64,000 bases of DNA from positions 1 through 64,000 of the forward strand of contig JAGNBF010000020.1 in assembly GCA_018004935.1 (NCBI GenBank). Reading direction: 5' to 3'. A program made the translations under genes and the position numbers. Below, piece by piece: positions 5,296 through 29,031 of the stretch. This DNA is from Chloroflexota bacterium (GTDB taxonomy: Bacteria > Chloroflexota > Anaerolineae > Promineifilales > Promineifilaceae). Within the stretch, counting starts at the first letter, position 1. Every line of letters begins with the position of its first letter. Below the pieces are notes generated by a model that was not told where the DNA came from, searched no databases, and saw only the letters and a list, made by a program, of their open reading frames with translations.

Positions 5296-7290
5296 TCACG
5301 ATGCCCTTTCCCCTTTGGGCCGGTAGGCCAGCAAGCGCAAACCATTCAAAGAAACCAGTACGGTACTCCCCTCATGGCCGACAACGCTAAGCGGTAAGGG
5401 CAGACCCCAGCCCAAAACGGATGCCAACAACAGGATAATCATGCCCAGAGCAAAAACGAGGTTTTGTACCAGGGTGCGCCGGGTTTGCTGGCTCAGGCGT
5501 ATCAGATAAGGCAGGTGCTTCAGATCGTCCCCCATCAGGACAATGTCGGCGGTTTCTAGAGCAACATCGGTTCCGGCCGCGCCCATGGCAATGCCGATTG
5601 TGGCCGCCGCCAATGCTGGAGCATCATTTACGCCATCCCCCACCATTGCCACCGGGCCAACTTCCTGGGCCAGCCGTTTGAGGACGTGCATTTTGTCAGC
5701 GGGCATCAATTCGGCATATACCTCGTCAATGCCAGCCTGACGGGCCAGGGCTTCGGCGACACGGGCATTATCTCCGGTGAGCATGACCACCCGTTTAACG
5801 CCGACTTGTTTGAGTTGACGCACTGTCGCGGCCGCGTCCGGGCGCAACACATCAGCAATGCCTAGTACCCCCAAAACCTGAACCCTGTTCTCTGTGGTGG
5901 CCGCAATGATAACGGTGGTTTTTCCTTGTGCCTGCAAACTGTGGAGAACGTCCGCGGCCGCGTCCAGTCCCTTTGTTGTCCATTGGGCAAAGTAACGCTG
6001 GTTGCCAATGGTGATGCGCCGTCCCGCCACAACAGCGCCCACCCCCATGCCCGTTTCGGAATAAAAATCGGTAGCTTCAGGGATAGCCAGGTGACGTTCT
6101 GTGGCCGCGTCTACAATCGCCTGGGCTAAAGGATGTTCTGACTTGACTTCGACTGCGGCCGCGAGGGCCAGGAGTTCCATTTCACTGCCCTGCCAATCTT
6201 GCGTACAAACCCGAATGTCGGTTACTTTAGGTTTGCCAATCGTCAGGGTGCCGGTTTTATCAAACGCCACCACTTTGATCGTAGCCGCCTGCTCCACATA
6301 CGCCCCTCCCTTAAACAGGATACCCCGACGTGCCCCATTACCGATAGCCGAAAGCACCGTTGCCGGAGTGCTGATAACCAGAGCACAGGGCGAGGCCGCT
6401 ACCATCAAAGTCATCGCCCGATAAAAGGTGGGTTGAAACGGTTCATCCAGTAACAAAAGGGGTAGAACAATGGCCGAAAGGGTCATCAGAATAACCCCCA
6501 AGGCATAATATTGCTCCGCTTTTTCGATAAAACGTTGGGTGTGGGCCTTTTCGCTGTGGGCTTCTTCTACCAGTTTGATTAGCCTGGCCAGGGTGGTGTC
6601 GGCGGCCAGGTGGGTGACTTCCACTTCCAGGTGGCCCCGTTGGTTGATGGTTCCAGCCAGGACCATGTCACCCACCCGTTTGCTGACAGGGATAGATTCA
6701 CCGGTAATGGTGGCCTGGTCAACGCTACTTTCACCGGCAATGACTAGCCCATCTAAAGCCAGCCGATCACCCGGGCGGACAATCATCACATCACCCAGGC
6801 AAACTTCTTCCAGCGGTAGTGTGACTGTTTCTTCCTGGCGCTGAATGAGAGCGGTTGTGGGGCGCAAGGCCATGAGGGCACGGATGGCGTTGCGGGTGCG
6901 GTCCAGGGCATATTCTTGCAGAACGTTGGAGAGAGAAAACAGGAATAGGAGCATAGCCCCTTCAAATGGTGCTCCGACCGCGGCCGCGCCCAAAGCCGCC
7001 AGCACCATAAGCATATCTACATCAATGGTTAGTTGGCGTAAGGAAGCCAATCCCGCCTGCAAACCAAAAACGCCCCCGGCAATGTAGGCGATGAGATACA
7101 AAAGCACAATAAGCGGCCGCGAGGCTTCCTGCCGTTCGGCTAACAGGCCACCTAACATGGTTATCAGAGTGACCGCTGTCAGAAGGGCGGGCAGACGTTC
7201 ACCCACCAACCACTCCTGTAGCTGGATGATCCATCGCGGCCGCGTTGATAAACTGTTTGAAGACATCGTAATCATTTTTCCTGTCATCAT
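5296..7290 (-). CDS. P1B-4-type heavy-metal transporting ATPase (Co/Fe/Zn export)
   Basis: A 664-residue P-type ATPase that would export a divalent transition metal. Visible motifs are the actuator TGES (196-199), the phosphorylation site DKTGT with Asp344, GDGVND in the hinge (about 557), the membrane metal-site SPC (300-302) and C-terminal HEGST (639-643). SPC plus HEGxT, with no N-terminal CxxC metal-binding domain, places it in the P1B-4 (CoaT/CtpD-like) subgroup rather than the CPC-type Zn/Cd/Cu pumps. The start overlaps the stop of the TrmB-type regulator gene by four bases (ATGA), so the two form a coupled pair. Metal identity cannot be read from sequence: Co and Fe are known for the subgroup. 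Seven copies of GCGGCCGC lie within it. Confidence 0.88.
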   Translation of the reverse strand: MMTGKMITMSSNSLSTRPRWIIQLQEWLVGERLPALLTAVTLITMLGGLLAERQEASRPLIVLLYLIAYIAGGVFGLQAGLASLRQLTIDVDMLMVLAALGAAAVGAPFEGAMLLFLFSLSNVLQEYALDRTRNAIRALMALRPTTALIQRQEETVTLPLEEVCLGDVMIVRPGDRLALDGLVIAGESSVDQATITGESIPVSKRVGDMVLAGTINQRGHLEVEVTHLAADTTLARLIKLVEEAHSEKAHTQRFIEKAEQYYALGVILMTLSAIVLPLLLLDEPFQPTFYRAMTLMVAASPCALVISTPATVLSAIGNGARRGILFKGGAYVEQAATIKVVAFDKTGTLTIGKPKVTDIRVCTQDWQGSEMELLALAAAVEVKSEHPLAQAIVDAATERHLAIPEATDFYSETGMGVGAVVAGRRITIGNQRYFAQWTTKGLDAAADVLHSLQAQGKTTVIIAATTENRVQVLGVLGIADVLRPDAAATVRQLKQVGVKRVVMLTGDNARVAEALARQAGIDEVYAELMPADKMHVLKRLAQEVGPVAMVGDGVNDAPALAAATIGIAMGAAGTDVALETADIVLMGDDLKHLPYLIRLSQQTRRTLVQNLVFALGMIILLLASVLGWGLPLPLSVVGHEGSTVLVSLNGLRLLAYRPKGERAS

Positions 7291-8090
7291 GTGGCTCCGT
7301 TCGTTGTATCCAGGCTCTCAAAAATTTGGCGATCTTCCGCATCCAGGCGCATCAATAATTCTGGCCCCAAACGAGCATAAATCCGTTGCGTGAATAACTC
7401 CATCCAGACAAATTGCCGGGCAATGTGAACCAAATCATGATTACCGGTAATAGTCGCCAACATTTCGCCTTGCGTCCCTTTGCTGGCAATCAGAAGCTCT
7501 TTATCATCCGCCTCTACCAATAGGGTTGTCTGTAGTCCCTGTAATTGACTTTCGAGAGGGGGGTGATAAGCCACTCTGCCCGCGCTGAATGGTGTCGTTC
7601 CGGTCAGTAACGCGTTTATCATCACCCCTTGATTGTGAGCAGTGGTAATTTCTGAGTGGAGTTCTGCCAAATCCTCATCCGTCAGCACCAGGAAGAGTTC
7701 AGTTTGGGCGTTTTGGATGAGTTGGGTGGCATAGGTGAGGGTCGTGGAGCGTCCTTTGAGGGACCAGAGACGATTATCAGGGGTATGGGCATACAGTTCC
7801 CCCAAACCACGCCGTAATTGCTGAAGTAGGCGTTGGTGTTCAGATTCATATCGCCCTAGCAAAAGTTCAGGGGGCATAGGGCGGTACAATGTGGCCCGCT
7901 CTTCGACTGTTTCTAACGCGGCTCCTCGTCCATGTAAACGCTTTAACGCTTCGTATACCATCGAACGAGGTACACCTGAGGCTTTGCTGATCTGATAGCC
8001 CGATACAGGATGCTCCTGTAATAGGGCTAGATACACCTTTGCTTCGTATTCAGTAAACCCGATTGCTAATAAGTTTGTCAATAAGTCCAT
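7287..8090 (-). CDS. TrmB-family transcriptional regulator
   Basis: A 267-residue protein with an N-terminal winged-helix domain (about 1-75: an EYEAKVYLALL helix, then SKASGVPRSMVYEALKRL as recognition helix) followed by a coiled segment and a C-terminal TrmB-type effector domain. ATG 8090 is chosen over the upstream TTG 8102 because TTGAGG lies seven bases before it. It is co-transcribed with the metal ATPase by a 4-bp overlap, so it plausibly controls that pump or its own operon. TrmB proteins classically bind sugars, so a metal-linked member would be unusual. There is no GCGGCCGC in this gene. Confidence 0.82.
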   Translation of the reverse strand: MDLLTNLLAIGFTEYEAKVYLALLQEHPVSGYQISKASGVPRSMVYEALKRLHGRGAALETVEERATLYRPMPPELLLGRYESEHQRLLQQLRRGLGELYAHTPDNRLWSLKGRSTTLTYATQLIQNAQTELFLVLTDEDLAELHSEITTAHNQGVMINALLTGTTPFSAGRVAYHPPLESQLQGLQTTLLVEADDKELLIASKGTQGEMLATITGNHDLVHIARQFVWMELFTQRIYARLGPELLMRLDAEDRQIFESLDTTNGAT

Positions 8091-8159
8091 TTTTTGCCTC
8101 AAGGAGGTGGCTCTTTGGAAATTCAGGGGGTTGACACCATGAAAATATTTGAGTGGTTT

Positions 8160-8205: not shown

Positions 8206-8905
8206 CACTGTTCTGGCTTACCGTTGCCGGTTTGCCCTTATACACCCTCTCGGTGGTTCTTGGGAATTTCGCGGGATACGGGCAACCCTTGTGGTTCTCC
8301 CACACGGGGCAGGCACAAGGTCAGCCCGTACATCTGGTGTCAATCCCCTGAATTCCCAAAGAACCGTAAAAGATTAAGTTCCGTCAAGCGCTTTTAACTG
8401 TTTTGACCTTTTTTCAGTAGAGTCATAATTAATTGTTGGTATCTATACAGCCCCTCACCCTAACCCTCTCCCCAGGGAGAGGGAACTAACTCTCCTCTCC
8501 CGCTTCGGGACAGGGGCGGGGGTTTCCCCCTTCCCACTTGTTGATTAAATGATTAATCGGGTAATGAGTGGATTCGCCCTCCCCCCTGCCCGCTGGGAGC
8601 GCAGGGGAATGGGTTTTTCGTGGTCGCCATTCTATGCCTGTGTTATTTCGGAAAAACTCAATAACCGTGGGATAAATCCACGAAACGTTTAAAATCCGGG
8701 CGTGGTTCATAAGTCGGCAAACGGTGCTTAGTCATCGTTTGGAAATAAGATGGGGGGCGCGGTCAGGAGACCGGTCACAGCAAAAAGGGAAGTTGTTCTT
8801 AAACAGTTTCTTAGCCGTGCCCCCCGGGCAAGGGGGCATGGTTTTAGGGAAAATACCTGTTTGGGTGTACTCCAGACCCCCAGGGAAACTTCTGTGAGGA
8901 ATTTA
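8206..8905. repeat. Intergenic repeats before the maturation fusion gene
   Basis: No gene. It contains an R9 copy (about 8275-8375, a GGGCAACCCTTGTGGTT ... GGGCAGGCACAAGG type shared with 15606-15708), a CCCTCTCCCCAGGGAGAGGG hairpin near 8468-8487, a TTAATCGGGTAAT half-module near 8551 and an R2 copy (8757-8781). Three bases of GC-rich bias give an open frame upstream of the real ATG 8906, but it is repeat sequence. Confidence 0.65.
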
Positions 8906-11065
8906 ATGAGAGATAAAGGGTTGGTAGTGATACGTGGTGGTGGAGATTTGGCGACAGGTGTGATCGCCCGTTTGTATCGGGCAGGATACCGGGTATTGGT
9001 GTTGGAACTGGCGCACCCCTTGGTGGTGCGGCGGCGGGTGGCGGTAGCTACGGCCATTGCCGAAGGAGAAATCCTTATTGAAGACCTGATTGCCCGCCGG
9101 GCTGAGACCCTGGCCGAAGCGCTATCTCTGACCCATCAAGGGGTAATTCCGGTGCTGATTTCTCCCGCTTTACCCTTTATTGCTGATGATCTGGTAGCCC
9201 TGGTAGATGCCCGTATGGCCAAACGCAACCTTGACACCCATCTGGCGCAGGCGCCGCTGGTGATTGCCTTGGGGCCGGGATTTGTGGCGGGGCAGGATTG
9301 CCATGCGGTTATTGAAACGATGCGCGGCCATGATTTAGGACGGGTGCTCTGGCGGGGCGCGGCTTTGCCCAATACTGGTACGCCGGGTATTGTCGCCGGG
9401 AAAGGAGCGGAGCGAGTCCTGCGTGCCCCGGTAGCCGGAATAGTGACCTGGCAGGTAGATATTGGTGTGGTAGTGGCCGAAGGGCAACCCCTGGGGCAGG
9501 TGGCGGGCACGCCGTTGGTGGCCCCTTTTGCCGGGGTGGTGCGGGGTCTTATTGCCTCAGGCACGACAGTTTCGGCTGGTTTGAAGATTGGCGATGTGGA
9601 TGCTCGTTGTGAGGTGGCGGCCTGTTTTACTATTTCGGAGAAGGCGTTTGCGGTGGGTGGGGGGGTATTAGAAGCGGTGTTGATGAGGGCACCCGCGGCC
9701 GCGCCACATCCTCTCCCTGTGTTGTCCTTACCCGGGGCCATGGGCGTACGCGGCCGCAAAGAACTCATCGCTTTAGTCGGGGGCGGTGGCAAAACCAGCC
9801 TCATGTTTGCCCTGGCACAAGCATTAGGGCCGGGAGCCATCACCAGTACTACGACCCGTATCTTTGCCGCCCAGATGCGCCATGCTCCTGTTGCCCTTTC
9901 GCCCACGGGAATCACCCACCTGACAACCGCTTTACGCCGTTGGGGGACGGCTCTGATAGTAGGCGAAACCGTGGGGGATAAAGTGTCGGGTGTAGACCCG
10001 GCCTATCTGGCCGGACTGTGGCAACGGCCTGATGTGCGCCATGTTATTGTAGAAGCGGATGGTTCCCGGATGCGCCCTTGCAAAGCGCCTGCCCATCATG
10101 AGCCTCTGATTCCAACGGAAGCAACAGTGGTAATGCCTGTGGTAGGGCTAGACGCCCTGGGGCAATCAGTATTTGCGGCCGCGCACCGGCCTGAACTTGT
10201 GTGTGCCCTGACTGGCCTACAGGAAAACGAAGCCATCACCGAAGCCGCCCTGGTAATGTTACTAACCCATGAGCAAGGTGGACTGAAGGGTATCCCCGCA
10301 GAAGCACGGGTTATTCCCTTTTTAAATAAGGTGGAGAGTCCGGCCAGCCTCGCGGCCGCACGTCGGATTGCCGCTCAGGTTTTACGCCATAAACGGATAG
10401 AACGAGTCATTATTGGGGCAGTGCAGACAAGTCAGGCTGTGCAGGAACTGCATCGCCCCATCACGGCGGTAATTTTGGCCGCTGGTCAGGCCAGCCGTAT
10501 GGGTCAGTTGAAACAACTGTTGCCCTGGGGTGAGACAACCATATTGGGTCAGACGTTGCGTCAGGTGGCCCAAAGCCTGGTGCAAGAAATCCTTGTTGTG
10601 ACAGGACATGAGGCTGAAGCCGTGGGCAATGAGGTCAGGCAGGTGGAGTTAGCGGGGGGAGAGATGCGGCCGCGGCTTCTTCATAATCCTTACTACCTTC
10701 AGGGCGAAATGCTCTCATCCCTTCAACAAGCCATCCGCCATCTGGATTCACGCACCGCCGCCGTTCTTGTTGTCCTGGCTGATCAGCCCCTGGTGGAGCC
10801 GGAGACCTATAATGAAATTTTGTTGGCTTATGCTCAGGGGTACGCCGGGTTAATCGTCCCGGAATATGCAGGGCAACGAGGTAATCCGGTATTAATTGAC
10901 CGCCGTTATTTTGGGGAGCTTCTGGCACTGCCACCTGGTGCGGCTCCGCGCCATTTACTCCAACAACACCCTCATGATTTGTATGCCGTACCCGTCAGCC
11001 GTGAGAGTGTGATCCAGGATTTGGACACCCCGGAGGTGTATGAACGGTGGCGGCCAGGGGAGTGA
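8906..11065 (+). CDS. Molybdenum hydroxylase maturation fusion: YqeB-YqeC-MocA
   Basis: A 719-residue three-domain protein. Domain 1 (about 1-265) is YqeB-like with the Rossmann-type motif GGGDLATG near the start. Domain 2 (about 272-505) is YqeC-like with P-loop GGGGKTS and the EADGSR motif. Domain 3 (about 518-719) is a MocA-type nucleotidyltransferase (LAAGQASRMGQLKQLLPW), which cytidylates molybdopterin cofactor. In E. coli the three are separate neighbouring genes of the selenium-linked hydroxylase locus. Their fusion argues that they act together on cofactor maturation of the hydroxylases encoded downstream. ATG 8906 is chosen because GTGAGGA precedes it and YqeB homology begins there; upstream codons are repeat DNA. 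Five GCGGCCGC copies lie inside. Confidence 0.85.
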   Translation: MRDKGLVVIRGGGDLATGVIARLYRAGYRVLVLELAHPLVVRRRVAVATAIAEGEILIEDLIARRAETLAEALSLTHQGVIPVLISPALPFIADDLVALVDARMAKRNLDTHLAQAPLVIALGPGFVAGQDCHAVIETMRGHDLGRVLWRGAALPNTGTPGIVAGKGAERVLRAPVAGIVTWQVDIGVVVAEGQPLGQVAGTPLVAPFAGVVRGLIASGTTVSAGLKIGDVDARCEVAACFTISEKAFAVGGGVLEAVLMRAPAAAPHPLPVLSLPGAMGVRGRKELIALVGGGGKTSLMFALAQALGPGAITSTTTRIFAAQMRHAPVALSPTGITHLTTALRRWGTALIVGETVGDKVSGVDPAYLAGLWQRPDVRHVIVEADGSRMRPCKAPAHHEPLIPTEATVVMPVVGLDALGQSVFAAAHRPELVCALTGLQENEAITEAALVMLLTHEQGGLKGIPAEARVIPFLNKVESPASLAAARRIAAQVLRHKRIERVIIGAVQTSQAVQELHRPITAVILAAGQASRMGQLKQLLPWGETTILGQTLRQVAQSLVQEILVVTGHEAEAVGNEVRQVELAGGEMRPRLLHNPYYLQGEMLSSLQQAIRHLDSRTAAVLVVLADQPLVEPETYNEILLAYAQGYAGLIVPEYAGQRGNPVLIDRRYFGELLALPPGAAPRHLLQQHPHDLYAVPVSRESVIQDLDTPEVYERWRPGE

Positions 11066-11663: not shown

Positions 11664-12611
11664 ATGTCTCCCATTGCTATTGTTGCCGTTGGTGGCAATT
11701 CCCTTATTACCGATAGTAAAAGACCCGATGTAGGCCATCAGTGGGACGCGGTGCGCGAAACGTGCCGTCATCTGGCTGATATGGTTGAGGCTGGCTGGCG
11801 GCTTGTTGTAACCCATGGTAATGGGCCCCAGGTTGGTTTCATTTTGCGGCGGAATGAGCTTGCGGCCGCGACCGTTCACACCACTCCCCTTGATCTCATC
11901 GTCGCCGATACCCAGGGTTCCATTGGCTACATGATCCAACAAGCCCTGCGCAACGAACTATTCAAACGAGGCGTCAGCAAACCGGTTGTTTCTGTCGTAA
12001 CCCAGGTGTTGGTAGACCGGGCCGACCCTGCCTTCGCCCACCCCAGCAAACCCATTGGCGGCTTTATGACAGAAACCGAAGCCCGCACCTTTGAAAAGGA
12101 AGGCTGGCAGGTAGTTGAAGACGCCGGTCGAGGCTGGCGGCGGGTCGTAGCTTCCCCTCAACCCCTTCAAGTCATCGAAGAAGATTCCATCCGTTTGCTG
12201 GTAGATGGAGGCACCATTGTCATTGCCACCGGGGGTGGGGGCATTCCTGTGGTACAAAATGATGCCGGAGAATTGCGCGAACTTCGTGGCGTTTATGCGG
12301 TGATAGATAAGGATTGGGCCAGTGGTTTACTGGCCGAGCGACTGGGAGCCGATCTTTTCCTGATTTCGACCGGGGTCGAAAAGGCCGCTATCCGTTTTAA
12401 CAAGCCGGATCAGGAAAATTTGGCAGAAGTAAATGTGGCACAACTCGCCCAATACCTGAACGAAGGTCATTTTGCCGCCGGGAGTATGAAGCCCAAAGTG
12501 GAAGCCATGTTGCAATTTGTGCAACGGAGTGGCAAAACCGGCCTCATCACCAATCCGCCAAACATCGCACGTGCCCTGGCGGGAGAGACAGGTACATGGG
12601 TGAAGCCGTGA
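11664..12611 (+). CDS. arcC: Carbamate kinase
   Basis: A 315-residue amino-acid-kinase-fold enzyme that converts carbamoyl phosphate and ADP to ATP and carbamate. Full length for the family. It has the N-terminal glycine loop AVGGNS (about 7-12), THGNGPQVG (about 51-59) and an ATGGGGIPV segment (about 189-197). It is the counterpart of E. coli yqeA. Sitting next to YgeY and YgeW, it is expected to harvest ATP from carbamoyl phosphate released by the carbamoyltransferase. The gene name follows the general bacterial arcC usage. Confidence 0.92.
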   Translation: MSPIAIVAVGGNSLITDSKRPDVGHQWDAVRETCRHLADMVEAGWRLVVTHGNGPQVGFILRRNELAAATVHTTPLDLIVADTQGSIGYMIQQALRNELFKRGVSKPVVSVVTQVLVDRADPAFAHPSKPIGGFMTETEARTFEKEGWQVVEDAGRGWRRVVASPQPLQVIEEDSIRLLVDGGTIVIATGGGGIPVVQNDAGELRELRGVYAVIDKDWASGLLAERLGADLFLISTGVEKAAIRFNKPDQENLAEVNVAQLAQYLNEGHFAAGSMKPKVEAMLQFVQRSGKTGLITNPPNIARALAGETGTWVKP

Positions 12612-12809
12612 GGGGTAAATAAACCATCGCCAAGAGGCAAAGGTTACCCGGGTGTTGGCCTACTTTAGAAAATTCCGTTGGGGGAAAAATCAAGTAGATA
12701 ATTGCCCCAGGTACACCTGTATACAAGTTACTTTCTTGAAGGCTATACTAACCAATCGCACCAGAAGTCGAGTTAACCGCCTAATTTCAATCCCCTATTG
12801 AGGTACATT

Positions 12810-14030
12810 ATGGAAACAATCAGTCAACAGCTAAATGCCCGGATCGCGGCCGCGCACGATGACATTCTCCAATTCTTCCGCGACATCGTGGCTATCCCCA
12901 GCATGGACAGCGACATCGAAAAAGTCGGCCAACGTGTTGGTGAGGAGATGAAAAAGCTGGGTTATGATGAAGTATATGTAGACAAATATGGCTCCATCGT
13001 CGGCAAAATAGGGCATGGCGAAAAAATCCTGCTCTACGATAGTCACCTGGATACCGTCGGCATTGGCGACCCTTCCCAATGGGAATGGGACCCCTTCCAG
13101 GGCAAGGTCGAAGATGGCATGCTCTATGCCCGGGGCGCGTTAGATGAGAAAAACAGCACTCCCGGCATGGTTTACGGTCTGGCCCTGGCCCGTGATCTGG
13201 GGTTGTTGGCGGGATTTACCGCCTATTACCTGGGCAACATTGAAGAATGGTGTGATGGTATCGGGTGCGCCGCCTTTCATGATTGGGAAGGGGTTCACCC
13301 TGATTTTGTAGTTATTGGTGAACCAACCAATATGAAGGTATACCGGGGGCACAAAGGGCGTATTGAAACGGAGATTGTCTGTAAGGGTAAAAGCGCTCAC
13401 GCCGCCAGCAACTTCATGGGTGATAACGCCATTTACAAAATGTTGCCCGTTGTTAAAGCCATCGCTGACCTGGAAAAAGATTTTGTGCCCCATGAATTTT
13501 TGGGTCAGGGGCGCGTGACTGTGACCCGCATCTCCAGTGTTAGCCCTAGCGATAATGCCGTACCGGATGAATGCCGCATTTTTATTGATCGGCGTGTCAC
13601 CTTTGGCGAAACCCGTGATTACTGGCGAACCGCACTGGAAGCAGTTATCCCTGCGGATAAACGGGCCGATTTCTCTTTCCCATCCATGATTTACGCCAAA
13701 CCCAGCCATACCGGCGCTGTTTATGAATACGAACAATACTTCCCGGCCTGGGCGTTGGAAGAAACTCATCCCCTGGTGCAGGCGGGTATTGAAGCGTTAA
13801 AAACGGCATGGCCAGACGAAACTGATCCGTTTGGACAGGGAAAGTGGGATTTTTCCACTAATGGGAACTACTGGGCGGGTAAATTGGGTATTCCTAGCAT
13901 TGGTTTTGGCCCTGGCAATGAGATTTATGCTCATGCGGTAAATGAACATGTGTCGCTGGCGGATGTGGTGGATGCCACCCGGTTTTACGCCTTGTTACCG
14001 GCGATGCTAAAAAGTAAATTGAGTGAATGA
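12810..14030 (+). CDS. ygeY: YgeY-family M20 metallohydrolase (selenium/purine cluster)
   Basis: A 406-residue M20-family dinuclear zinc amidohydrolase. The metal-site pattern is visible: SHLDTV with His79 and Asp81, GALDEK with Asp112, the catalytic/ligand pair Glu145-Glu146, and a late His in YAHAVNEHV. YgeY lies in the E. coli ygeWXY locus, and homologues are part of reported anaerobic purine catabolic sets, probably cleaving a ring-opened ureido/amino-acid intermediate. The exact substrate is not settled by sequence. ATG 12810 follows TTGAGG; the upstream TTG at 12798 is unlikely. It lies 12 bp upstream of ygeW, so the two are co-transcribed. Confidence 0.88.
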   Translation: METISQQLNARIAAAHDDILQFFRDIVAIPSMDSDIEKVGQRVGEEMKKLGYDEVYVDKYGSIVGKIGHGEKILLYDSHLDTVGIGDPSQWEWDPFQGKVEDGMLYARGALDEKNSTPGMVYGLALARDLGLLAGFTAYYLGNIEEWCDGIGCAAFHDWEGVHPDFVVIGEPTNMKVYRGHKGRIETEIVCKGKSAHAASNFMGDNAIYKMLPVVKAIADLEKDFVPHEFLGQGRVTVTRISSVSPSDNAVPDECRIFIDRRVTFGETRDYWRTALEAVIPADKRADFSFPSMIYAKPSHTGAVYEYEQYFPAWALEETHPLVQAGIEALKTAWPDETDPFGQGKWDFSTNGNYWAGKLGIPSIGFGPGNEIYAHAVNEHVSLADVVDATRFYALLPAMLKSKLSE

Positions 14031-14042
14031 GGAGAATAAATT

Positions 14043-15023
14043 ATGCAAACCAATTTTCGCGGCCGCGATTTCATTGGTGATCTCGATTTCAGCAAAGAAG
14101 AAGTCGAAACCGTCCTGGATGTAGCCTGGGACCTCAAACGCAAACGGGCGTTAGGGGAATCCCATGCCCTGTTGCGTGATAAAGTGCTGGCTATGTTGTT
14201 CTTCTTTACCAGTACCCGCACCCGTGGCTCTTTCGAGGCCGGTATGGCCCAACTTGGCGGCCACGCCGCCTTCATTGACTCCGAAACCACCCAAATCTCC
14301 CACGGTGACACCGCTAAAGAGATTGGCGAAATTTTCGGGCGTTATTTTGACGGCATTGCCATTCGGCAGTGCGATTGGCAATTTGGTAATCAGTACATCA
14401 ACGAGGTCGCCCAGGCCAGCCGTGTGCCGATTCTCAACATGCAATGTGATGTGTATCACCCCTTCCAATGTCTGGCCGACCTGATGACCATCATGGAGAA
14501 AAAAGGGCGCAATTTACGGCGCAAAAAAGTGGTGGTCTCCTGGGCCTATGCGGCTTCTTACAGCAAACCCATCTCTGTCCCCCAATCGCTTATTCTCCAG
14601 ATGACCCGCTTTGGCTGTGATGTAGTTTTGGCTCACCCGCCGGAGTTCCAACTGATGCCCGACATCATGGATATGGCCCGCGAAAATGCCCGTAAACATC
14701 ATGTGGGTTTTGAAGTGGTACATGACATGGATGAAGCGTTTAAGGATGCCGATGTGGTCTATCCCAAGAGCTGGGGGCCGCTGGTGACAACCACTGCCAA
14801 AGAAGACGGCAAAGCACTCATTGAAAAATATCGCTCCTGGATCACGGACCAACGGCGCATGAATTTAGCGAAGGAAGATGCCATTTATATGCACTGCCTC
14901 CCGGCTGACCGCAACCTGGAAGTGACGGATGAAGTCATTGATGGCCCGAACTCCGTTGTATACGACGAAGCCGAGAACCGCCTGCACGCCCAAAAAGCGG
15001 TCATGGCGCTAACCATGTCCTGA
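14043..15023 (+). CDS. ygeW: YgeW-family knotted carbamoyltransferase
   Basis: A 326-residue aspartate/ornithine transcarbamylase superfamily member. The carbamoyl-phosphate loop STRTR is at 57-61 and the HCLPA motif is near residue 280. The extended middle segment matches the trefoil-knotted YgeW group rather than ArgF or PyrB. In a catabolic setting it is expected to run phosphorolytically, releasing carbamoyl phosphate for the carbamate kinase two genes upstream. GAGGAG precedes the ATG and only 12 bp separate it from ygeY. GCGGCCGC at about 14059 is read as RGRD near the N terminus. Confidence 0.9.
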   Translation: MQTNFRGRDFIGDLDFSKEEVETVLDVAWDLKRKRALGESHALLRDKVLAMLFFFTSTRTRGSFEAGMAQLGGHAAFIDSETTQISHGDTAKEIGEIFGRYFDGIAIRQCDWQFGNQYINEVAQASRVPILNMQCDVYHPFQCLADLMTIMEKKGRNLRRKKVVVSWAYAASYSKPISVPQSLILQMTRFGCDVVLAHPPEFQLMPDIMDMARENARKHHVGFEVVHDMDEAFKDADVVYPKSWGPLVTTTAKEDGKALIEKYRSWITDQRRMNLAKEDAIYMHCLPADRNLEVTDEVIDGPNSVVYDEAENRLHAQKAVMALTMS

Positions 15024-17340: not shown

Positions 17341-17994
17341 GTGAAGGTTGCTATTTTAGGCGGAACAGGGCCGGAAGGGAGTGGATTGGGTGTCCGGTGG
17401 GCGGCCGCGGGACATGAGGTGTTTATTGGTTCGCGGCAGGCGGAACGGGGAGAGCAGGTAGCGGCAGAGTTGGCGGCTCTGTTGCCCACCGGAAAGATAA
17501 CAGGGGGAGATAATGTCGCGGCCGCGAGCCAGGCCGAAGTTATCGTTTTGGCCGTGCCCTACCAGGCACAAGCCAACACCCTGGATTCGGTTAAAGATCT
17601 TATGGGTGGCAAATTGCTGATCACCGTTGTTGCTCCCACTGGGGAAAAGAAAGCCCGCGTCTGGCGGTTGCCCAGTGGTCTCTCTGCCGCCGAAGAAGCC
17701 CAACAACAACTGGGCGAAACGGTGCGTGTCGTCGCCGCCTTCCAAAACATTGGGGCGCATCACCTGCGTGATTTGTCTTACCAATTGGATTGTGATGTGT
17801 TAATCTGTGGTGAGAAAGCCGCGGACAAAGAGGTGGCTCTGCAATTAGCCGCTGATGCTGGTTTGCGCGGCATCAACGCCGGAGCCTTACAAAACGCTTC
17901 CGTTGCGGAGGGGCTGACATCGCTTCTTATTTTTATTAACATGAATAACAAAGTTAAAGATGCCGGAATACGTATCACGGGTCTTGCGGGGTAA
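17341..17994 (+). CDS. npdG: NADPH-dependent F420 reductase (NpdG-like)
   Basis: A 217-residue NAD(P)-binding protein of the F420:NADP oxidoreductase family. It transfers hydride between NADPH and the deazaflavin cofactor F420. The N-terminal Rossmann motif is LGGTGPEGSGLG (residues 6-17). The following IGSR segment supplies the Arg expected for NADP 2'-phosphate binding. It starts with GTG 17341, preceded by AAGGAG. This implies that the organism makes F420, as does the LLM oxidoreductase at 29278. A role in the surrounding purine pathway is only a neighbourhood inference. Confidence 0.85.
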   Translation: MKVAILGGTGPEGSGLGVRWAAAGHEVFIGSRQAERGEQVAAELAALLPTGKITGGDNVAAASQAEVIVLAVPYQAQANTLDSVKDLMGGKLLITVVAPTGEKKARVWRLPSGLSAAEEAQQQLGETVRVVAAFQNIGAHHLRDLSYQLDCDVLICGEKAADKEVALQLAADAGLRGINAGALQNASVAEGLTSLLIFINMNNKVKDAGIRITGLAG

Positions 17995-18603: not shown

Positions 18604-21183
18604 ATGGAATTTCTGCTCAATGGACAGACCAAAACATTTGATGGTGATCCGGAACTTCCCCTGCTGAATTATCTGCGGGATGTCGAAGGGATTACCTCGC
18701 CCAAAGATGGCTGTGCCCCTCAGGCGGCCTGTGGTTGTTGCGCCGTGCAACTGGATGACAAAGCCGTTCTTTCTTGTGTTACCCCCATGAAAAAGGTGGC
18801 AGATGGTGCCGTTACCACCATCGAAGGTCTCACTCATTATCAGCAAGAGGTGTATGCCAATGCCTTTGTGGCCAAAGGTGGGGTGCAATGTGGCTTTTGC
18901 ATTCCGGGTATTGTCATTCAATCCCATGTGCTCATTGGTAAGAATCCAGATCCCAGCCGGGATGAGATTGAAAAAGCCCTGACGCCTCATCTGTGTCGGT
19001 GTACCGGCTACAAGAAAATTGTGGATGCGGTACAGTGCGCGGCCGCGGCGATTCGCCAGGAAGAAGAAGTTGCCCTTCCTCAAGATACCGGCCCCATTGG
19101 CACACGCCTGCCCAAATATCAGGCCCAAAAACTTGTTCTGGGCCAGCACCAATATGTAGATGACATCAAAATAGACGGGATGCTGTTTGCGGCCTTGAAA
19201 CTGAGTGACCATCCGCGTGCCCGGGTACTAAGCCTGGATGTGAGCGCGGCCGCGCAACTGCCCGGCGTTATTCGTGTATTCACCGCAGAAGATGTGCCCG
19301 GCGGCCGCGTCATCGGCCTCATCCGGCAAGATTGGCCCCTCATGGTGGCCGTCGGTGAAACCACCCGCTACGTAGGTGATGTCCTGGCCGGGGTTGTGGC
19401 CGAAAGTGACACCATTGCCCGCCAGGCGGTGGCCCTCATCACCGTTGAGTACGACATCCTCGAACCCGTTACTGACATGCACAAAGCGCTGTTACCAGAT
19501 AGCCCACTTGTTCATGAAGGGGGTAATACCCTCTCCCGTACCGTTACGCACCGGGGAAATGTCGAGCAGGCCCGGGGTGCCTCTGCCTATATTTCACGGG
19601 GGGTTTACCAGACCCAGATGATCGAACATGGGTACATGGAGCCGGAATGTGCCATTGCTTACCCCAGCGAAGAGGGGGTGGCCGTTCTTTCCCAAAGCCA
19701 GGGGGTCTATGACGACCAGGTACAGATTGCCAAATTACTGGGCTGGCCCCTGGAAAAAGTCCGGGTCATTCTGGTTCCCAATGGCGGCGGTTTTGGCGGC
19801 AAAGAAGATTTGTCGGTGCAGGGGCACGCGGCGGTCATGGCCGTGGCTCTGGGACAGCCGGTGAAAGTACGCCTTACCCGTGACGAATCCATCACCATGC
19901 ACCCCAAACGACATCCTATCTGGATGGATTATGAGGTGGGTTGTGATGCGGCGGGGCAGTTGACCTTTGTAAAGGTCAAATTTGTCGGGGATACCGGGGC
20001 GTATGCTTCGGTGGGGATGAAGGTATTGGAGCGGTCGGCGGGGCACGCCACCGGGGCGTACCATTTCCCGGTGACGGATGTGGAAGCGACGGCGGTCTAT
20101 ACCAACAATATTCCTTGTGGGGCGATGCGCGGCTTTGGTGTGAATCAGTCGGCTTTCGGGTTGGAGAGTTGTCTGGATGATTTGTGTGAACAAGGGGGGT
20201 TTGATCGCTGGCAGTTCCGTTATAACAATGCCCTGCAAGATGGGGATATGACGGCTACCGGCCAGGTGATTGAAGGTGGGGCCGGGGTGCGGGCCACGTT
20301 AATGGCGGTGAAAGAGGCGTTTTACGCGGCCAAATATGCAGGTTTGGCCTGTGGAATTAAAAACACGGGGGTAGGTAATGGAATGGCTGATGAGGCGACG
20401 GCGCGGATTACCATCGCGGCCGCGGATCATATCCTCATTGATCATGGCTGGACAGAAATGGGGCAAGGGGTCAACACCATCGCAACCCAGGTCGTTTGCC
20501 AGGAAACCGGCCTCGATCCCCGCCTCATGGAAGTGCGCATAGATACCGCCGCCCAACAAGTTGCTGGTATGACAACCGCCTCACGAGCCACATCCCTGAT
20601 CGGTAATGCTCTCATTGATGCCTGCAAAACGTTAAAAGAGGATTTGCAGAACCATACCCTGGCTGAACTGGTGGGGCGACAATATGTGGGGGGCTGGCGG
20701 GTAGATTGGACGACCAAACCGGGGGCCAAAGTAGACAAAATTGTCACCCATTATTCGTATAGCTATGCCACGCAACTGGTAACACTTAACGACGAGGGCC
20801 AGATCGCTAAAATTACCGCCGCCCATGATGCCGGTAAGATTTTTAACCCCACTTTGTTTGAGGGCCAACTGGAAGGCTCTATTCACATGGGTTTGGGGTA
20901 TGCCATTAGCGAAGAACTGGTTATGGAAAATGGCCGTCCCAAGAGTACCCGCCTGCGCCAGATGGGGATTCTACGAGCCAAAGAGATGCCGGAGATGGAG
21001 ATCATTGGTATAGAAGTGCCCGATCCATATGGCCCATATGGTGCCAAAGGGGTGGGGGAAATTGGTCTGGTTCCTACGGCAGGTGCGGTGGCTAATGCGT
21101 TGTACCAATATGACAAAGTGCGCCGCTACCAATTGCCGCTCGCACTCCCCAAACGGAACCGCCGGGTGAAACTGGCCGATTAG
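18604..21183 (+). CDS. Selenium-type xanthine dehydrogenase (fused FeS and molybdopterin subunit)
   Basis: An 859-residue molybdenum hydroxylase that would oxidise xanthine or a related purine. Residues 1-80 form a plant-type [2Fe-2S] domain (Cys37, Cys43, Cys46, Cys58). Residues about 85-150 form the second [2Fe-2S] domain (Cys96, Cys99, Cys131, Cys133). Residues from about 166 on form the molybdopterin domain with GGGFGGKED and a C-terminal KGVGEIGLVP bearing the expected catalytic Glu. The organisation matches the selenium-dependent XDH family rather than the three-gene XdhABC enzymes. The FAD module is separate (24161). It has a strong ribosome-binding site, GGAGGT. Selenium dependence is a family property and cannot be seen in the sequence. 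Confidence 0.9.
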   Translation: MEFLLNGQTKTFDGDPELPLLNYLRDVEGITSPKDGCAPQAACGCCAVQLDDKAVLSCVTPMKKVADGAVTTIEGLTHYQQEVYANAFVAKGGVQCGFCIPGIVIQSHVLIGKNPDPSRDEIEKALTPHLCRCTGYKKIVDAVQCAAAAIRQEEEVALPQDTGPIGTRLPKYQAQKLVLGQHQYVDDIKIDGMLFAALKLSDHPRARVLSLDVSAAAQLPGVIRVFTAEDVPGGRVIGLIRQDWPLMVAVGETTRYVGDVLAGVVAESDTIARQAVALITVEYDILEPVTDMHKALLPDSPLVHEGGNTLSRTVTHRGNVEQARGASAYISRGVYQTQMIEHGYMEPECAIAYPSEEGVAVLSQSQGVYDDQVQIAKLLGWPLEKVRVILVPNGGGFGGKEDLSVQGHAAVMAVALGQPVKVRLTRDESITMHPKRHPIWMDYEVGCDAAGQLTFVKVKFVGDTGAYASVGMKVLERSAGHATGAYHFPVTDVEATAVYTNNIPCGAMRGFGVNQSAFGLESCLDDLCEQGGFDRWQFRYNNALQDGDMTATGQVIEGGAGVRATLMAVKEAFYAAKYAGLACGIKNTGVGNGMADEATARITIAAADHILIDHGWTEMGQGVNTIATQVVCQETGLDPRLMEVRIDTAAQQVAGMTTASRATSLIGNALIDACKTLKEDLQNHTLAELVGRQYVGGWRVDWTTKPGAKVDKIVTHYSYSYATQLVTLNDEGQIAKITAAHDAGKIFNPTLFEGQLEGSIHMGLGYAISEELVMENGRPKSTRLRQMGILRAKEMPEMEIIGIEVPDPYGPYGAKGVGEIGLVPTAGAVANALYQYDKVRRYQLPLALPKRNRRVKLAD

Positions 21184-21415: not shown

Positions 21416-22768
21416 GTGAGTTTACTTATCCACAATGTCACTATTTTTACGAACGATGAAGCCAACCAGATGCTGACAGGGCAGGGGGTGGTGATTGAGG
21501 GTACGCGGATTGGGGCGGTGGGGCCGGTAGCGGAACTCCAGGCGCAATACCCTGAAGCGGAGAGATTGGATGGCCGCGGCCGCTTACTCATGCCCGGTTT
21601 TGTCAACACCCACATGCACTTCTATGGCCTCTATGCGCGGGGAATCAGCCTGCGCCAGACCGCCCACAACTTTCACGAAATCCTGCAATATCTCTGGTGG
21701 GCCTTAGATAAAGTGTTAGACCCCGAAGCCGTGTATTACAGTGCCCTCATTCCCGCCATAACCGCCGTACGTAAAGGTGTCACCAGCATGATCGATCATC
21801 ATGCCAGCCCATTTGCCTGTGCCGGAAGCCTGGATCAGATTGAAGAGGCGTTGGCCCTGGTAGGGGTGCGGGGGCTGTTGTGTTATGAAGTCTCAGACCG
21901 GGATGGTAAGGTGATTCGAGATGCCGGACTGGCCGAAAATGAACGCTACATGCGTCACTGCCAGCGAGCCAAAGCCGAGAACCCGGATCATTTGTTTGAT
22001 GGCATGATGGGGTTACACGCTTCGTTTACCCTGGACGATGACTCTTTACAGCAGGCGGTCGCCATTGCCAACACTCTGGATCGTGGGTGTCATATCCACA
22101 TGCTAGAAGATTTTGTGGATGAGACCCTCACCCAGGCCCAGTATGGCCGTTCGGTGGTAGAGCGGCTGGATTATTTTGGTGTGTTGGGGGAGAAGAGTAT
22201 TACAGCACATGGCATATTTGTGGATGCCCGCGGCCGCGACCTGCTCGCCAACAGCAACACCATCGTCGTCCATCAGGCCCAATCTAATATGAACAACGCC
22301 GTGGGCCGTGCCGACGTGTTCGCCCTGCTCGACCGGGGTATCACCGTGGGTATTGGCACCGATGGTATGACCCCCGACCTGCGCCGTGAGGCGATGACCG
22401 GCTATCTGATGCACAAACATCACATGCACGACAATAACCTGGGCTGGGGAGAATATGAACGGATGACCCTCAAGCACAATCCGGCTATTTATCAGCGGCT
22501 TACCGGGCAAAAGGTGGGCCGAATTGCTCCCGGTTATCTGGCGGATGTGATTTTGGTGGATTATTACCCCCCCACGCCCATGAGCGGGGATAACTTTTGG
22601 GGCCATTTTTTGTTTGGCCTGGTGGATGCCGATGTCAATACAACGATTGTGAATGGCCGTATCCTCATGCACGACAAAGTGATACCGCACCTGGATGAAG
22701 CTGAGATCGCGGCCGCGTCCCAACCTGTTGCTCAAGCTGTCTGGCATAAGTACCAGGGTGAGGACTAG
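21416..22768 (+). CDS. ssnA: SsnA-family aminohydrolase
   Basis: A 450-residue amidohydrolase-superfamily metal enzyme of the SsnA type, encoded in E. coli beside ygfM and xdhD. It has the metal-site HMH in NTHMHFYG (about 60-67), the SsnA-typical stretch WWALDKVLDPEAVYYS, CHIHMLE, AHGIFV and the catalytic Asp in GTDGM. SsnA homologues belong to reported anaerobic purine catabolic gene sets, but their precise reaction is not clear from sequence. The start is GTG 21416 with AAGGGGGAAA upstream. A gap of 23 bp to the next deaminase gene indicates an operon. Confidence 0.88.
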   Translation: MSLLIHNVTIFTNDEANQMLTGQGVVIEGTRIGAVGPVAELQAQYPEAERLDGRGRLLMPGFVNTHMHFYGLYARGISLRQTAHNFHEILQYLWWALDKVLDPEAVYYSALIPAITAVRKGVTSMIDHHASPFACAGSLDQIEEALALVGVRGLLCYEVSDRDGKVIRDAGLAENERYMRHCQRAKAENPDHLFDGMMGLHASFTLDDDSLQQAVAIANTLDRGCHIHMLEDFVDETLTQAQYGRSVVERLDYFGVLGEKSITAHGIFVDARGRDLLANSNTIVVHQAQSNMNNAVGRADVFALLDRGITVGIGTDGMTPDLRREAMTGYLMHKHHMHDNNLGWGEYERMTLKHNPAIYQRLTGQKVGRIAPGYLADVILVDYYPPTPMSGDNFWGHFLFGLVDADVNTTIVNGRILMHDKVIPHLDEAEIAAASQPVAQAVWHKYQGED

Positions 22769-22791: not shown

Positions 22792-24147
22792 ATGTCAACA
22801 TTACTCCTGAAAAATGCCCGTTTGCTCATCACCATGAACGATGCTGGCGACACCATTCCTGATGGCGCATTGTTCATTCACAATAACAGCATTGCCTGGG
22901 TGGGTCGCACCGCCGACCTACCCCCCGCCTACCAGATCGCTGACCGGGTGATTCAGGCCCATGACCGGGTGGTTTTGCCCGGTCTGGTCAACACCCATCA
23001 TCACCTTTACCAGACCCTCACCCGGGCGCTGGCTCCCAACAGCGGCCTGTTCCCCTGGTTACAGACCCTTTACCCCATTTGGGCCAGAATGGATGGTGAA
23101 GCCGTTTACACCAGTGCCTTAGTCGGCATGGCAGAACTTATTCTGAGTGGGTGTACAACCGCCAGCGATCACCTGTACCTTTTTCCCAATGGGGCAAAAC
23201 TAGATGATGAAATCCGCGCCGCCCAGGAGCTGGGGTTCCGTTTCCATGCCGCCCGTGGCTCTATGTCATTGGGTGAAAGTCAGGGGGGCCTACCCCCGGA
23301 TAGTGTTGTGGAAGAGGAAGAAGCCATTCTCAAAGATTGTATCCGTGTGATTGAAACCTATCACAATCCTAACCCCCTGGCGATGGTTCGGGTGGTGGTG
23401 GCCCCTTGCTCCCCCTTCTCAGTAACTCCCGATCTCATGCGGGAGTCGGCACGCCTGGCACGGGCGTATGGGGTTACATTGCACACCCATCTGGCGGAAA
23501 CCAAAGACGAAGAACAGTTTTGCCTGGAAAAATTTGGCTACCGTCCGGCGGCATATGCCGAACACCTGGAATGGGTAGGGCCAGATGTGTGGTGGGCACA
23601 TTCCGTGCATGTGGATGCCACAGAAATTGCCCTTATGGCCCATACCCATACCGGTGCGGCCCATTGCCCCTGTAGCAATATGCGCCTGGCCAGTGGCATT
23701 GCCCCGGTGCGGCAATGGCTGGATGCTCAGGTGCGGGTAGGGTTGGGGGTAGATGGCTCGGCGAGTAATGATGGTTCGCACATGCTCAATGAGGCACGGC
23801 AGGCCTTACTCTTGCAACGGGTACTAAATGAGGCGACGACGCTGAAAGTGGAAGAGGCGTTGTGGTTGGGCACACGAGGGGGCGCGGCCGCGTTAGGGCG
23901 TGACGATATTGGTCAATTAACTCCCGGCAAAGCCGCCGATGTGATCGCTTTTGATCTAAATCGCCTGGCCTACACCGGTGCCCAACATGATCCCATGGCC
24001 GCACTCATCTTTTGTGCTCCCCAACCGGTAGATTTATCCATCATTAATGGCCGGATCATCGTCGAAGATGGCGAATTGCGACCGATGGATCTGCGCCCCA
24101 TCATCACCCGGCACAACCAGATTAGCCGGAAGTTAATTAACGGGTAA
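22792..24147 (+). CDS. 8-oxoguanine deaminase-like amidohydrolase
   Basis: A 451-residue amidohydrolase resembling characterised 8-oxoguanine deaminases, with atrazine chlorohydrolase/TrzN-type enzymes as more distant relatives. Motifs: HHH in NTHHHLYQ (about 67-74), HTHLAETKDE with a ligand His and catalytic Glu, AHSVHV, and GVDGSASND with the ligand Asp. It would convert 8-oxoguanine to uric acid, or deaminate a related purine, which fits its place between SsnA and the FAD subunit of the purine hydroxylase. It shares an operon with both (23 bp upstream gap, 13 bp downstream gap). Confidence 0.82.
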   Translation: MSTLLLKNARLLITMNDAGDTIPDGALFIHNNSIAWVGRTADLPPAYQIADRVIQAHDRVVLPGLVNTHHHLYQTLTRALAPNSGLFPWLQTLYPIWARMDGEAVYTSALVGMAELILSGCTTASDHLYLFPNGAKLDDEIRAAQELGFRFHAARGSMSLGESQGGLPPDSVVEEEEAILKDCIRVIETYHNPNPLAMVRVVVAPCSPFSVTPDLMRESARLARAYGVTLHTHLAETKDEEQFCLEKFGYRPAAYAEHLEWVGPDVWWAHSVHVDATEIALMAHTHTGAAHCPCSNMRLASGIAPVRQWLDAQVRVGLGVDGSASNDGSHMLNEARQALLLQRVLNEATTLKVEEALWLGTRGGAAALGRDDIGQLTPGKAADVIAFDLNRLAYTGAQHDPMAALIFCAPQPVDLSIINGRIIVEDGELRPMDLRPIITRHNQISRKLING

Positions 24148-24160
24148 TACGGAGAAAACC

Positions 24161-24898
24161 ATGCCTCAATTAAAAAGTTACCACCGCCCAGACAGTGTGA
24201 CAGCGGCTTTGTCGTTGTTGACGCGGCCGCGTACCGTCGTTTTAGCCGGGGGAACCAACCTCGTGGCCCAGTTAAATGACATGCTGGTGGATGAGGTTGT
24301 AGATCTACAGGCCATAGGGTTAGATCAGATTGTTGTGGGGGCAGATACCATTAGCCTGGGGGCAATGGTGCGCCTGCAAACGCTGGTTGATCACCCTGAA
24401 CTCCCCTTGCTGATTCGCCAGATGGCCCAACGCGAGGGGCCAAATACCTTTCGCCATGTTAGCACCCTGGGCGGAACGGTCGCGGCCGCGGATTGGGAGA
24501 GTGAACTGTTTGCCGCTCTGCTGGTGTATGGGGCGGTTGTAACCTTCCACACAGCAGACGGTGTGCATAACAGCACCCTGGCCGATTGTGGCCCCGCCCT
24601 GGCCCAAAAGGGGGTTTTGATTACCGGGATAACGATTGAACGAGCCGGGCACGCGGCCGCGGAAAGAGTGGCCCGTACCCCTGCCGATAAACCCATCGTG
24701 GCGGTTTGCGGCCGCGTTACCCCCGGTGGGCAACTATTTCTGGCCTTCTGTGGTGTTGCCGAACGCCCCTGCCTGCTCCCACCCGCTGATCTGCCCCACA
24801 TCCAACCCCCTACCGATTTTCGCGGATCATCCACCTACCGCCAGCAAATGGCTCAGGTATTGAGCCAGCGGGTGCTGAAAGCAATACGCAGTGAATAA
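24161..24898 (+). CDS. FAD-binding subunit of molybdenum hydroxylase (YgfM/XdhB-like)
   Basis: A 245-residue protein, shorter than the usual 280-290, of the CO dehydrogenase/xanthine dehydrogenase FAD subunit fold. The two FAD loops are visible: AGGTNLVAQL (about 30-39) and STLGGTVAAAD (about 102-112). It passes electrons from the molybdopterin and FeS domains to the acceptor. It lies 13 bp after the deaminase gene and upstream of the XdhD-like gene. It could serve either hydroxylase in the cluster. Four GCGGCCGC copies in about 740 bp make it one of the densest genes for this octamer. Confidence 0.86.
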   Translation: MPQLKSYHRPDSVTAALSLLTRPRTVVLAGGTNLVAQLNDMLVDEVVDLQAIGLDQIVVGADTISLGAMVRLQTLVDHPELPLLIRQMAQREGPNTFRHVSTLGGTVAAADWESELFAALLVYGAVVTFHTADGVHNSTLADCGPALAQKGVLITGITIERAGHAAAERVARTPADKPIVAVCGRVTPGGQLFLAFCGVAERPCLLPPADLPHIQPPTDFRGSSTYRQQMAQVLSQRVLKAIRSE

Positions 24899-28230: not shown

Positions 28231-29031
28231 ATGTCTTTAGATAACGATCAACCCCTTCTCCAAGCGATATTGGCGGCACAAGCGGCGGGTGAAACCGTGG
28301 TTTTGGCTACGGTGATAAAGGCCAGAGGGTCTGTGCCCCGTCATGTTGGAGCCAAAATGCTGGTTTATGCCGACGGCCGCTTGAAGGGCACGATTGGTGG
28401 CGGCGAAATGGAATCACGCATCATTCAGGAAGCGCAGGTAGTTCTGCAAGAGCAACAGCCGCGTACCCTGGCCTACACCCTGGTAGACCCCCAAAAAGGT
28501 GATCCCGGCATCTGTGGGGGTGAAGTGGAAATTTATCTGGAGCCGTATGTGCCCCCGGCGACGGTGTTTGTGGTAGGGTGCGGGCATGTGGGGCGGGCGA
28601 TTGCTTCTCTGGCCCATTGGTTGGGTTTTCAGGTAGTGGTAACAGATGATAGAGAGGAATTGGTCGCGGCCGCGTACATCCCCCATGCTGACATCTACCT
28701 CCCTGGTTCTATCGAGTCCGCCCTACAACAACATCCCCTCACCACCAACACCTACGTCACCGTCGTTACACGTAATGCAATGGTAGACCGGGCCGTGTTG
28801 CCCCATCTGGCCCGTACCCCGGCTCCCTTCATTGGTGTCATGGGCAGTCGGCGGCGCTGGGAAACAACCCGCCAGCAACTCCTTGCCGATGGCCTGACCG
28901 AAACCGAACTGGCCCGCCTGCATGCCCCACTGGGCATAGACCTAAACGCCGAGTCACCCGAAGAAATCGCCGTGAGTGTGCTGGCAGAAATCATCAGAGC
29001 AAGACGGCAACACCCAAAGAGCATGCCTTAA
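28231..29031 (+). CDS. xdhC: XdhC/CoxF-family molybdenum hydroxylase maturation protein
   Basis: A 266-residue XdhC-type protein. It would bind molybdenum cofactor and help insert the sulfurated form into the hydroxylases. The N-terminal XdhC domain carries ARGSVPRHVGAK (about 30-41) and GTIGGGEME. The C-terminal Rossmann domain begins VVGCGHVGRAIA (about 114-125). It starts 17 bp after the XdhD-like stop, so they share an operon. The gene name is by family. GCGGCCGC at about 28667 gives an Ala run in the Rossmann domain. Confidence 0.88.
   Translation: MSLDNDQPLLQAILAAQAAGETVVLATVIKARGSVPRHVGAKMLVYADGRLKGTIGGGEMESRIIQEAQVVLQEQQPRTLAYTLVDPQKGDPGICGGEVEIYLEPYVPPATVFVVGCGHVGRAIASLAHWLGFQVVVTDDREELVAAAYIPHADIYLPGSIESALQQHPLTTNTYVTVVTRNAMVDRAVLPHLARTPAPFIGVMGSRRRWETTRQQLLADGLTETELARLHAPLGIDLNAESPEEIAVSVLAEIIRARRQHPKSMP

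Follow-up and report, generated by a model that had tools for sequence, protein, structure and literature searches.

A natural fusion of YqeB, YqeC and a MocA-type domain in a Chloroflexota bacterium, with a probable role in the maturation of selenium-dependent molybdenum hydroxylases

Haft and Self (2008; PMC2276186) have proposed, by profiling, that YqeB, YqeC and MocA are all accessory families of the selenium-dependent molybdenum hydroxylases, and their paper already describes fusions of XdhC with YqeB. According to another report, the trait is marked only by the co-occurrence of YqeB and YqeC (PMC5029168). MocA is described as transferring CMP onto Mo-molybdopterin, and XdhC-like proteins as keeping the cofactor during its sulfuration (PMC2997495). 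A 2024 study of C. difficile has reported that deletion of yqeB resembles deletion of selD on xanthine and uric acid, that deletion of yqeC alone had no clear effect in the experiments described, and that in a yqeB-yqeC double mutant a copy of yqeB restored the phenotype only partly (PMC11448449).

The window studied here is a stretch of 64,000 nucleotides from a Chloroflexota genome, in which homologues of these three proteins form a single chain. In E. coli K-12 the homologues of all three window domains are encoded by yqeB, yqeC and mocA (b2875-b2877), in a similar purine/selenium locus. A preliminary description of the window had called them separate neighbours in E. coli; neighbours they are, but yqeB-yqeC lies on the strand opposite mocA, and the 541-aa E. 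coli YqeB carries an extra N-terminal XdhC half that the window YqeB lacks. The XdhC-YqeB fusions likewise join YqeB to a cofactor-maturation domain, although their partner is an N-terminal XdhC and that of the window is YqeC-MocA; they include E. coli YqeB and locus L094 by Pfam, and L095, L107, L116, L119 and L135 by length only. Two-domain YqeC-MocA proteins (TIGR03172 plus TIGR03310/NTP_transf_3) of Anaerolineae and of Blautia caecimuris have the same order and the same two C-terminal domains as the window protein, and the MocA half of the Blautia protein falls under the TIGR03310 cut-off, as it does in the window. In these systems YqeB has its own gene, in many cases the one immediately upstream, whereas in the window it is fused. 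The cultured strain B. caecimuris DSM 29492 (locus L087, 6904-8325) encodes a 474-aa YqeC-MocA fusion that adjoins YqeB, and is a possible test host. A further parallel is offered by molybdopterin guanine dinucleotide synthesis. MobB is a P-loop protein regarded as a nucleotide-driven partner of MobA. The bifunctional MobA/MobB proteins (NCBIfam PRK14489 and PRK14490, by model name) combine, like the window protein, a nucleotidyltransferase and a P-loop protein for a molybdopterin dinucleotide, but they serve the guanine cofactor and have no YqeB, whereas the window concerns the cytosine cofactor and the profile similarity of its YqeC to MobB is limited to the P-loop.

The fusion gene and its parts are arranged as follows:

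8896-8900, + strand: GAGGA, a probable ribosome-binding site judged from the sequence, 5 nt upstream of the ATG at 8906
8906-11065, + strand: YqeB-YqeC-MocA fusion ORF, 719 aa, TGA stop at 11063-11065
8924-9685, + strand: YqeB domain (TIGR03309) of the short type, which has no XdhC half, with a predicted Rossmann part and biotinyl-type sandwich (residues ~166-234)
9686-9766, + strand: Ala/Pro-rich linker between YqeB and YqeC
9767-10387, + strand: YqeC domain (TIGR03172) with P-loop VGGGGKTS and EADG motif, predicted SIMIBI-type fold
10466-11050, + strand: MocA-type NTP transferase domain (LAAGQASRMGQLKQLLPW, DQP), closest solved relatives by sequence 2we9 and 2waw

No stop interrupts the frame between 8750 and the TGA, and translation could also begin further upstream, giving 771 aa from the first ATG; counted from the ATG at 8906, YqeB homology begins at residue 7. 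A stop-free run of 719 codons has a chance probability of ~3e-12 at the base composition of the window. Residues 7-260 match YqeB (TIGR03309) with 312.2 bits against a curated NCBIfam cut-off of 220, and residues 288-494 match YqeC with 175.2 bits for TIGR03172 (NCBIfam curated cut-off 73.05) and 113.5 bits for PF19842 (Pfam cut-off 27.6). Residues 521-715 match MocA (TIGR03310) with 155.8 bits, which is below the curated NCBIfam equivalog cut-off of 186.45, and match PF12804 (NTP_transf_3, MobA-like NTP transferases) with 112.6 bits, above the gathering cut-off of 27. The stop-free ORF and the three domain matches bear out the preliminary description of one 719-residue polypeptide with YqeB, YqeC and MocA, and its estimates of the junctions (9740 and 10455) agree with the HMM borders at 9685/9767 and 10387/10466. 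Including the window row, 26 alignment columns are invariant in YqeB (68 domains), 11 in YqeC (51) and 6 in the MocA-type domain (34); those of YqeC include GxGGK, constant in 51 of 51 rows, and EADG. Identity to the E. coli K-12 proteins is 51% for YqeB (C-terminal half only), 33% for YqeC and 29% for MocA. The last domain matches E. coli MocA at 29% (E 1e-24) and MobA at 26% (E 3e-4), and its first motif is AAG and not AGG. Being closer to MocA and carrying the AAG motif, the transferase is, as far as sequence can tell, of the MocA type (CTP) rather than the MobA type (GTP).

A second triple fusion is present in genome G311. It is 715 aa long without a stop, is 60% identical to the window protein and has the same architecture; its contig is letter-for-letter identical to JAGVTM010000567.1 of the public MAG 'Chloroflexi bacterium isolate THP_Bin_29'. 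The two genomes belong to different genera of one family. In both fusions the YqeB and YqeC domains exceed their family cut-offs, and the TIGR03310 score of the second (153.4 bits) is also under 186.45; E. coli MocA scores 214.2. The existence of this protein bears directly on whether the join is an assembly or sequencing artefact in a probable metagenome-assembled genome. The window genome is in 229 contigs, and the codon-position G+C pattern, which holds for most of the ORF including the second junction, weakens at residues 241-360 and is least typical near the first junction, which lies in that segment; composition therefore neither proves nor disproves the first join. The argument against an artefact comes instead from the second genome: an independent case in another genus shares the architecture at 60% identity, and the linker ends alike in both (LSLPxAxG). 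An assembly error is therefore unlikely, and the artefact reading, largely refuted, deserves very little credence. A frameshift or mis-assembly at the junctions, named beforehand as what would undo the fusion, is unlikely, with the frame open and G311 providing an independent case of the same architecture.

The fused state is rare. Among 647 distinct genomes (298 of the class, 35 more of the family and 314 more of the phylum, with up to three candidates per genome in the class and phylum searches), a stop-free YqeB-YqeC-MocA frame was found in the window genome and G311, i.e., in 2 of 647 among the matches listed. The domain-architecture search called for in the preliminary description thus yielded one recurrence. 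YqeC and MocA are joined in one chain in 33 of 52 genomes of the family, both triple fusions included. In 80 analysed of 396 confirmed loci, there were 1 triple fusion, 27 cases of YqeB with a YqeC-MocA fusion, 30 of YqeB with a separate YqeC and 22 with YqeB alone in the stretch covered, so that the YqeC-MocA join occurs in 28 of the 80, counting the triple fusion. Phyla beyond Chloroflexota were covered by these loci and by E. coli. The YqeC-MocA join is ordinary in the lineage and the rare part is the added join of YqeB to YqeC; the fresh evidence therefore concerns YqeB only. Evidence of the Rosetta-stone kind is broad for YqeC with MocA, and for YqeB it consists of two genomes plus close adjacency. 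Where YqeB and YqeC are separate ORFs in these 80 loci, their stop-to-stop frames lie at most 450 nt apart in 52 of 57. Four open frames of more than 700 aa that were considered as further fusions (G305, G231, G148 and G558) proved to be separate ORFs, and the stretch around a fifth (G124) yielded no YqeB. A search of open-licence papers found no report of a YqeB-YqeC-MocA triple fusion.

The same survey gives weight to a plainer explanation, namely that two adjacent genes in the same frame lost a stop and that the domains work as independently as before, the fusion having no mechanistic meaning. In the split relatives yqeB lies directly upstream of yqeC(-mocA), and several are one in-frame stop short of fusion: in G227, G232, G243 and G262 the two are in the same frame with one stop between them, and the long matches in G194, G227, G232, G243, G262, G641, G597 and G433 are adjacent same-frame YqeB and YqeC (or YqeC-MocA) with 1-2 stops between. 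A 26-codon linker would stay open by chance with a probability of ~0.38, so the open linker alone is weak evidence; the rarity of the fusion also fits, as do the nearest unfused relatives, described below. Against this, fusions occur in two genera, their proteins being 60% identical and each of the three domains still recognisable, and the linker of G311 is without any start-type codon (ATG, GTG or TTG), the closest in-frame one ahead of the YqeC P-loop being 38 codons off, inside YqeB. The window linker has six such codons in frame, 12 to 33 codons ahead of the P-loop, which leaves room for a separately made YqeC-MocA; from the sequence, such a product may arise there by an internal start. 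In the unfused relative G035, start codons stand 3 to 23 codons ahead of the P-loop. Shine-Dalgarno strength ahead of YqeC was tried as a sign of fusion and rejected as uninformative, since 29 split relatives average -2.4 kcal/mol and the random background -2.3. Taken together, a fusion of operon neighbours without mechanistic meaning appears rather unlikely.

Downstream of the fusion gene, the window contains the following genes, and the fusion gene opens a selenium-dependent xanthine dehydrogenase/purine locus:

11664-12611, + strand: carbamate kinase (as E. coli yqeA), by profile match
12798-14030, + strand: YgeY family selenium metabolism-linked hydrolase (440 bits, cut-off 321.5)
14043-15023, + strand: carbamoyltransferase, OTC/YgeW-like, scoring under the cut-off of each of the 16 listed models (YgeW and OTC included)
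18604-21183, + strand: selenium-dependent xanthine dehydrogenase (TIGR03311; 921 bits, cut-off 830)
21416-22768, + strand: SsnA aminohydrolase
22792-24147, + strand: 8-oxoguanine deaminase
24161-24898, + strand: molybdenum hydroxylase FAD-binding subunit
25250-28213, + strand: second molybdenum hydroxylase, 2Fe-2S and Mo-binding
28231-29031, + strand: stand-alone XdhC, the domain that is joined to YqeB in E. coli

An IMP dehydrogenase gene is also downstream of the fusion gene. Two F420-type genes lie within the locus, an NADPH-dependent F420 reductase NpdG (17341-17994) and an LLM-class oxidoreductase (29188-30285) that is under the cut-offs of its models. Just upstream of the fusion gene, on the opposite strand at 5296-8102, are a heavy-metal P-type ATPase that exceeds its cut-off and a TrmB-like regulator that does not. 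The contig of the second fusion is only 6.2 kb long, and no selenium-dependent molybdenum hydroxylase genes were found among the three neighbours scanned. The TIGR03309 family is expected in selD-positive genomes with molybdenum hydroxylase genes alongside (PMC2276186), and the window genome has both, a SelD (G000:C207:94470-95402, 376 bits) and the xanthine dehydrogenase at 18604. This SelD has an in-frame TGA in 'CAG*AAK', which we take to be the catalytic Cys/Sec site. Across the family, an in-frame TGA is present in every over-cut-off SelD match that extends to the beginning of the profile, so that SelD itself looks like a selenoprotein.

The window genome, which is 96.6% complete, has seven molybdenum hydroxylase large subunits (MoCoBD_1), and the fused domain is its single MocA-type domain above 50 bits, the next best match being MobA-like. 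If all seven hydroxylases use the cytidine cofactor, the MocA domain is therefore not dedicated to selenium. This suggests an account in which YqeC-MocA is general, making the dinucleotide cofactor for every hydroxylase, and the selenium factor is YqeB alone, so that the fusion ties a general step to a selenium-specific one. Genus g10, represented by six genomes (G298, G224, G299, G300, G301 and G244), is instructive in this respect. YqeC-MocA is kept in all six and SelD is over its cut-off in all six, and a TIGR03311 protein is over its cut-off in five; no YqeB match was found in any of the six. In g10 either YqeB is dispensable or the enzymes contain no selenium. The retention of YqeC-MocA without YqeB agrees with a general role, as does the finding that deletion of yqeB, not of yqeC, phenocopies the loss of selD in the C. 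difficile study (PMC11448449). On the other hand, as g10 keeps SelD, and TIGR03311-type enzymes in five of six genomes, loss of YqeB did not coincide with loss of the selenium genes, and profiling had linked the YqeC family itself to selenium, as Haft and Self describe (PMC2276186). We regard the general role of YqeC-MocA as possible, at somewhat less than even chances.

Five of the six g10 genomes are also the nearest to the fusions in the YqeC-MocA tree. In a YqeC-MocA tree of 38 rows the two fusions and five g10 genomes form a clade with support 92/93, and the window protein adjoins g10 with support 100/98; the sixth, G298, which likewise has no YqeB, is placed elsewhere. When G243, G232, G263 and G227 are left out, the fusions and the five unfused g10 genes form a clade with support 97/94. 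A clade of the two fusions alone has a p-AU of 0.061 in the YqeC-MocA tree, near rejection, and a single origin of the two has a p-AU of 0.41 in the YqeB tree (without G243 and G227) and is not rejected. One fusion followed by loss of YqeB in g10 and two separate fusions both fit these results.

These comparisons also limit what the fusion says about function. The preliminary description had taken it as a Rosetta-stone link that places YqeB and YqeC in the same cofactor step as MocA. That YqeB and YqeC-MocA share a pathway is supported by the fusion in two genera and by the selenium-dependent molybdenum hydroxylase locus in the window, but the same step is too strong a claim, given g10 without YqeB and the yqeC deletion reported for C. 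difficile (PMC11448449). The join of YqeB in two genomes supports the link, whereas that of YqeC and MocA is usual in the lineage and the link was proposed in 2008 (PMC2276186). The fusion is good physical support for a link already proposed, which it refines and does not found.

What is new here is the predicted folds of YqeC and YqeB. The YqeC model (pLDDT 95.7) has its best Z of 13.4 to SRP GTPases, at 3.3 A over 176 residues, and this SRP/MinD-type fold belongs to the SIMIBI class. Foldseek on the YqeC model alone was weak (best E 8e-4, TM 0.44), and the fold agrees with weak sequence similarity to FtsY (E 1.8e-4) and ArsA. YqeC is thus predicted, from the model, to be a SIMIBI-type P-loop NTPase. 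In hhalign, YqeC matched MobB with a probability of 46 over 32 P-loop columns, FtsY with 24, MeaB-type ArgK with 7 and HypB with 2.5; because the profile match is limited to those 32 columns, the MobB likeness is at the level of fold class only. An identification of YqeC as MobB drew no support beyond the P-loop from hhalign, and MobB was absent from the 50 structure matches listed for the model. The YqeB model (pLDDT 96.9) has an N-terminal part of Rossmann type together with a biotinyl-type sandwich (residues ~166-234), which matches biotinyl-type domains with Z ~11 across 65-74 residues; no biotinyl lysine motif was seen in the sandwich on inspection of its sequence. The YqeB model also matches 3on5, titled xanthine dehydrogenase and presumably XdhC-type, with Z 9.6 at 3.2 A over 124 residues, tied with short-chain dehydrogenases. 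We do not claim YqeB as a relative of XdhC in view of this tie and an empty profile comparison with the window XdhC (hhalign probability 2.6 over 35 columns); an XdhC-like, cofactor-carrying role of YqeB therefore draws no support from likeness. The predicted folds suggest that the proteins for the cytidine cofactor are arranged in the manner of MobA and MobB.

We lean towards a genuine fusion of neighbour genes, whose product is a single protein for the maturation of selenium-dependent molybdenum hydroxylases. The intact ORF, the three HMM matches, the second genus, the adjacency in split relatives, the selenium/XDH locus, SelD, the predicted folds, the closeness of the transferase to MocA, the parallel of the bifunctional MobA/MobB proteins and the selD-like yqeB deletion reported from C. 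difficile (PMC11448449) all speak for it. The MocA score under the TIGR03310 cut-off in both fusions, g10 without YqeB, the match of YqeC to MobB in the P-loop only, the missing profile similarity of YqeB to XdhC and the start-type codons ahead of YqeC in the window speak against it, as does the lack of a clear phenotype of the yqeC deletion in the same C. difficile study. The fusion, its recurrence, the domain identities, the locus, selD and the predicted folds are what the analysis shows; from these we infer every chemical step below and the sequence of the steps, and likewise that YqeC acts as a partner and that the cofactor is channelled. The MocA domain would join CMP to Mo-molybdopterin to give MCD, and the YqeC domain, as a SIMIBI-type P-loop NTPase, could act as its partner, using nucleotide to drive loading or hand-over, in the manner suggested for MobB beside MobA. 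The YqeB domain might keep the cofactor, or pass it on, during attachment of the labile selenium ligand, and the stand-alone XdhC would then aid insertion. Covalent joining could channel the labile cofactor. The strictest form of such a scheme, a one-chain assembly line in which MCD made by MocA moves by way of NTP hydrolysis in YqeC to YqeB, receives selenium there and is then delivered, is speculative and we consider it doubtful; if true, it would offer, for the first time, purified material with which to study the least understood of the routes by which selenium is used. Apart from the scheme, the fusion physically ties YqeB to a cytidine-cofactor enzyme, the fold models of YqeC and YqeB offer testable roles, and the natural single chain would supply YqeB, YqeC and MocA in equal amounts for purification and reconstitution, a useful reagent.

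Other arrangements of these genes were also observed among the loci. In L066, L127, L133, L160, L164, L165, L166 and L169, the gene for the YqeC-MocA fusion is followed immediately by another MocA-type gene that stands alone, which hints at specialisation of the fused and the free MocA. In a Chloroflexi MAG (L130, 5992-8218), YqeC, MocA and YqeB are encoded in that order by three separate adjacent genes.
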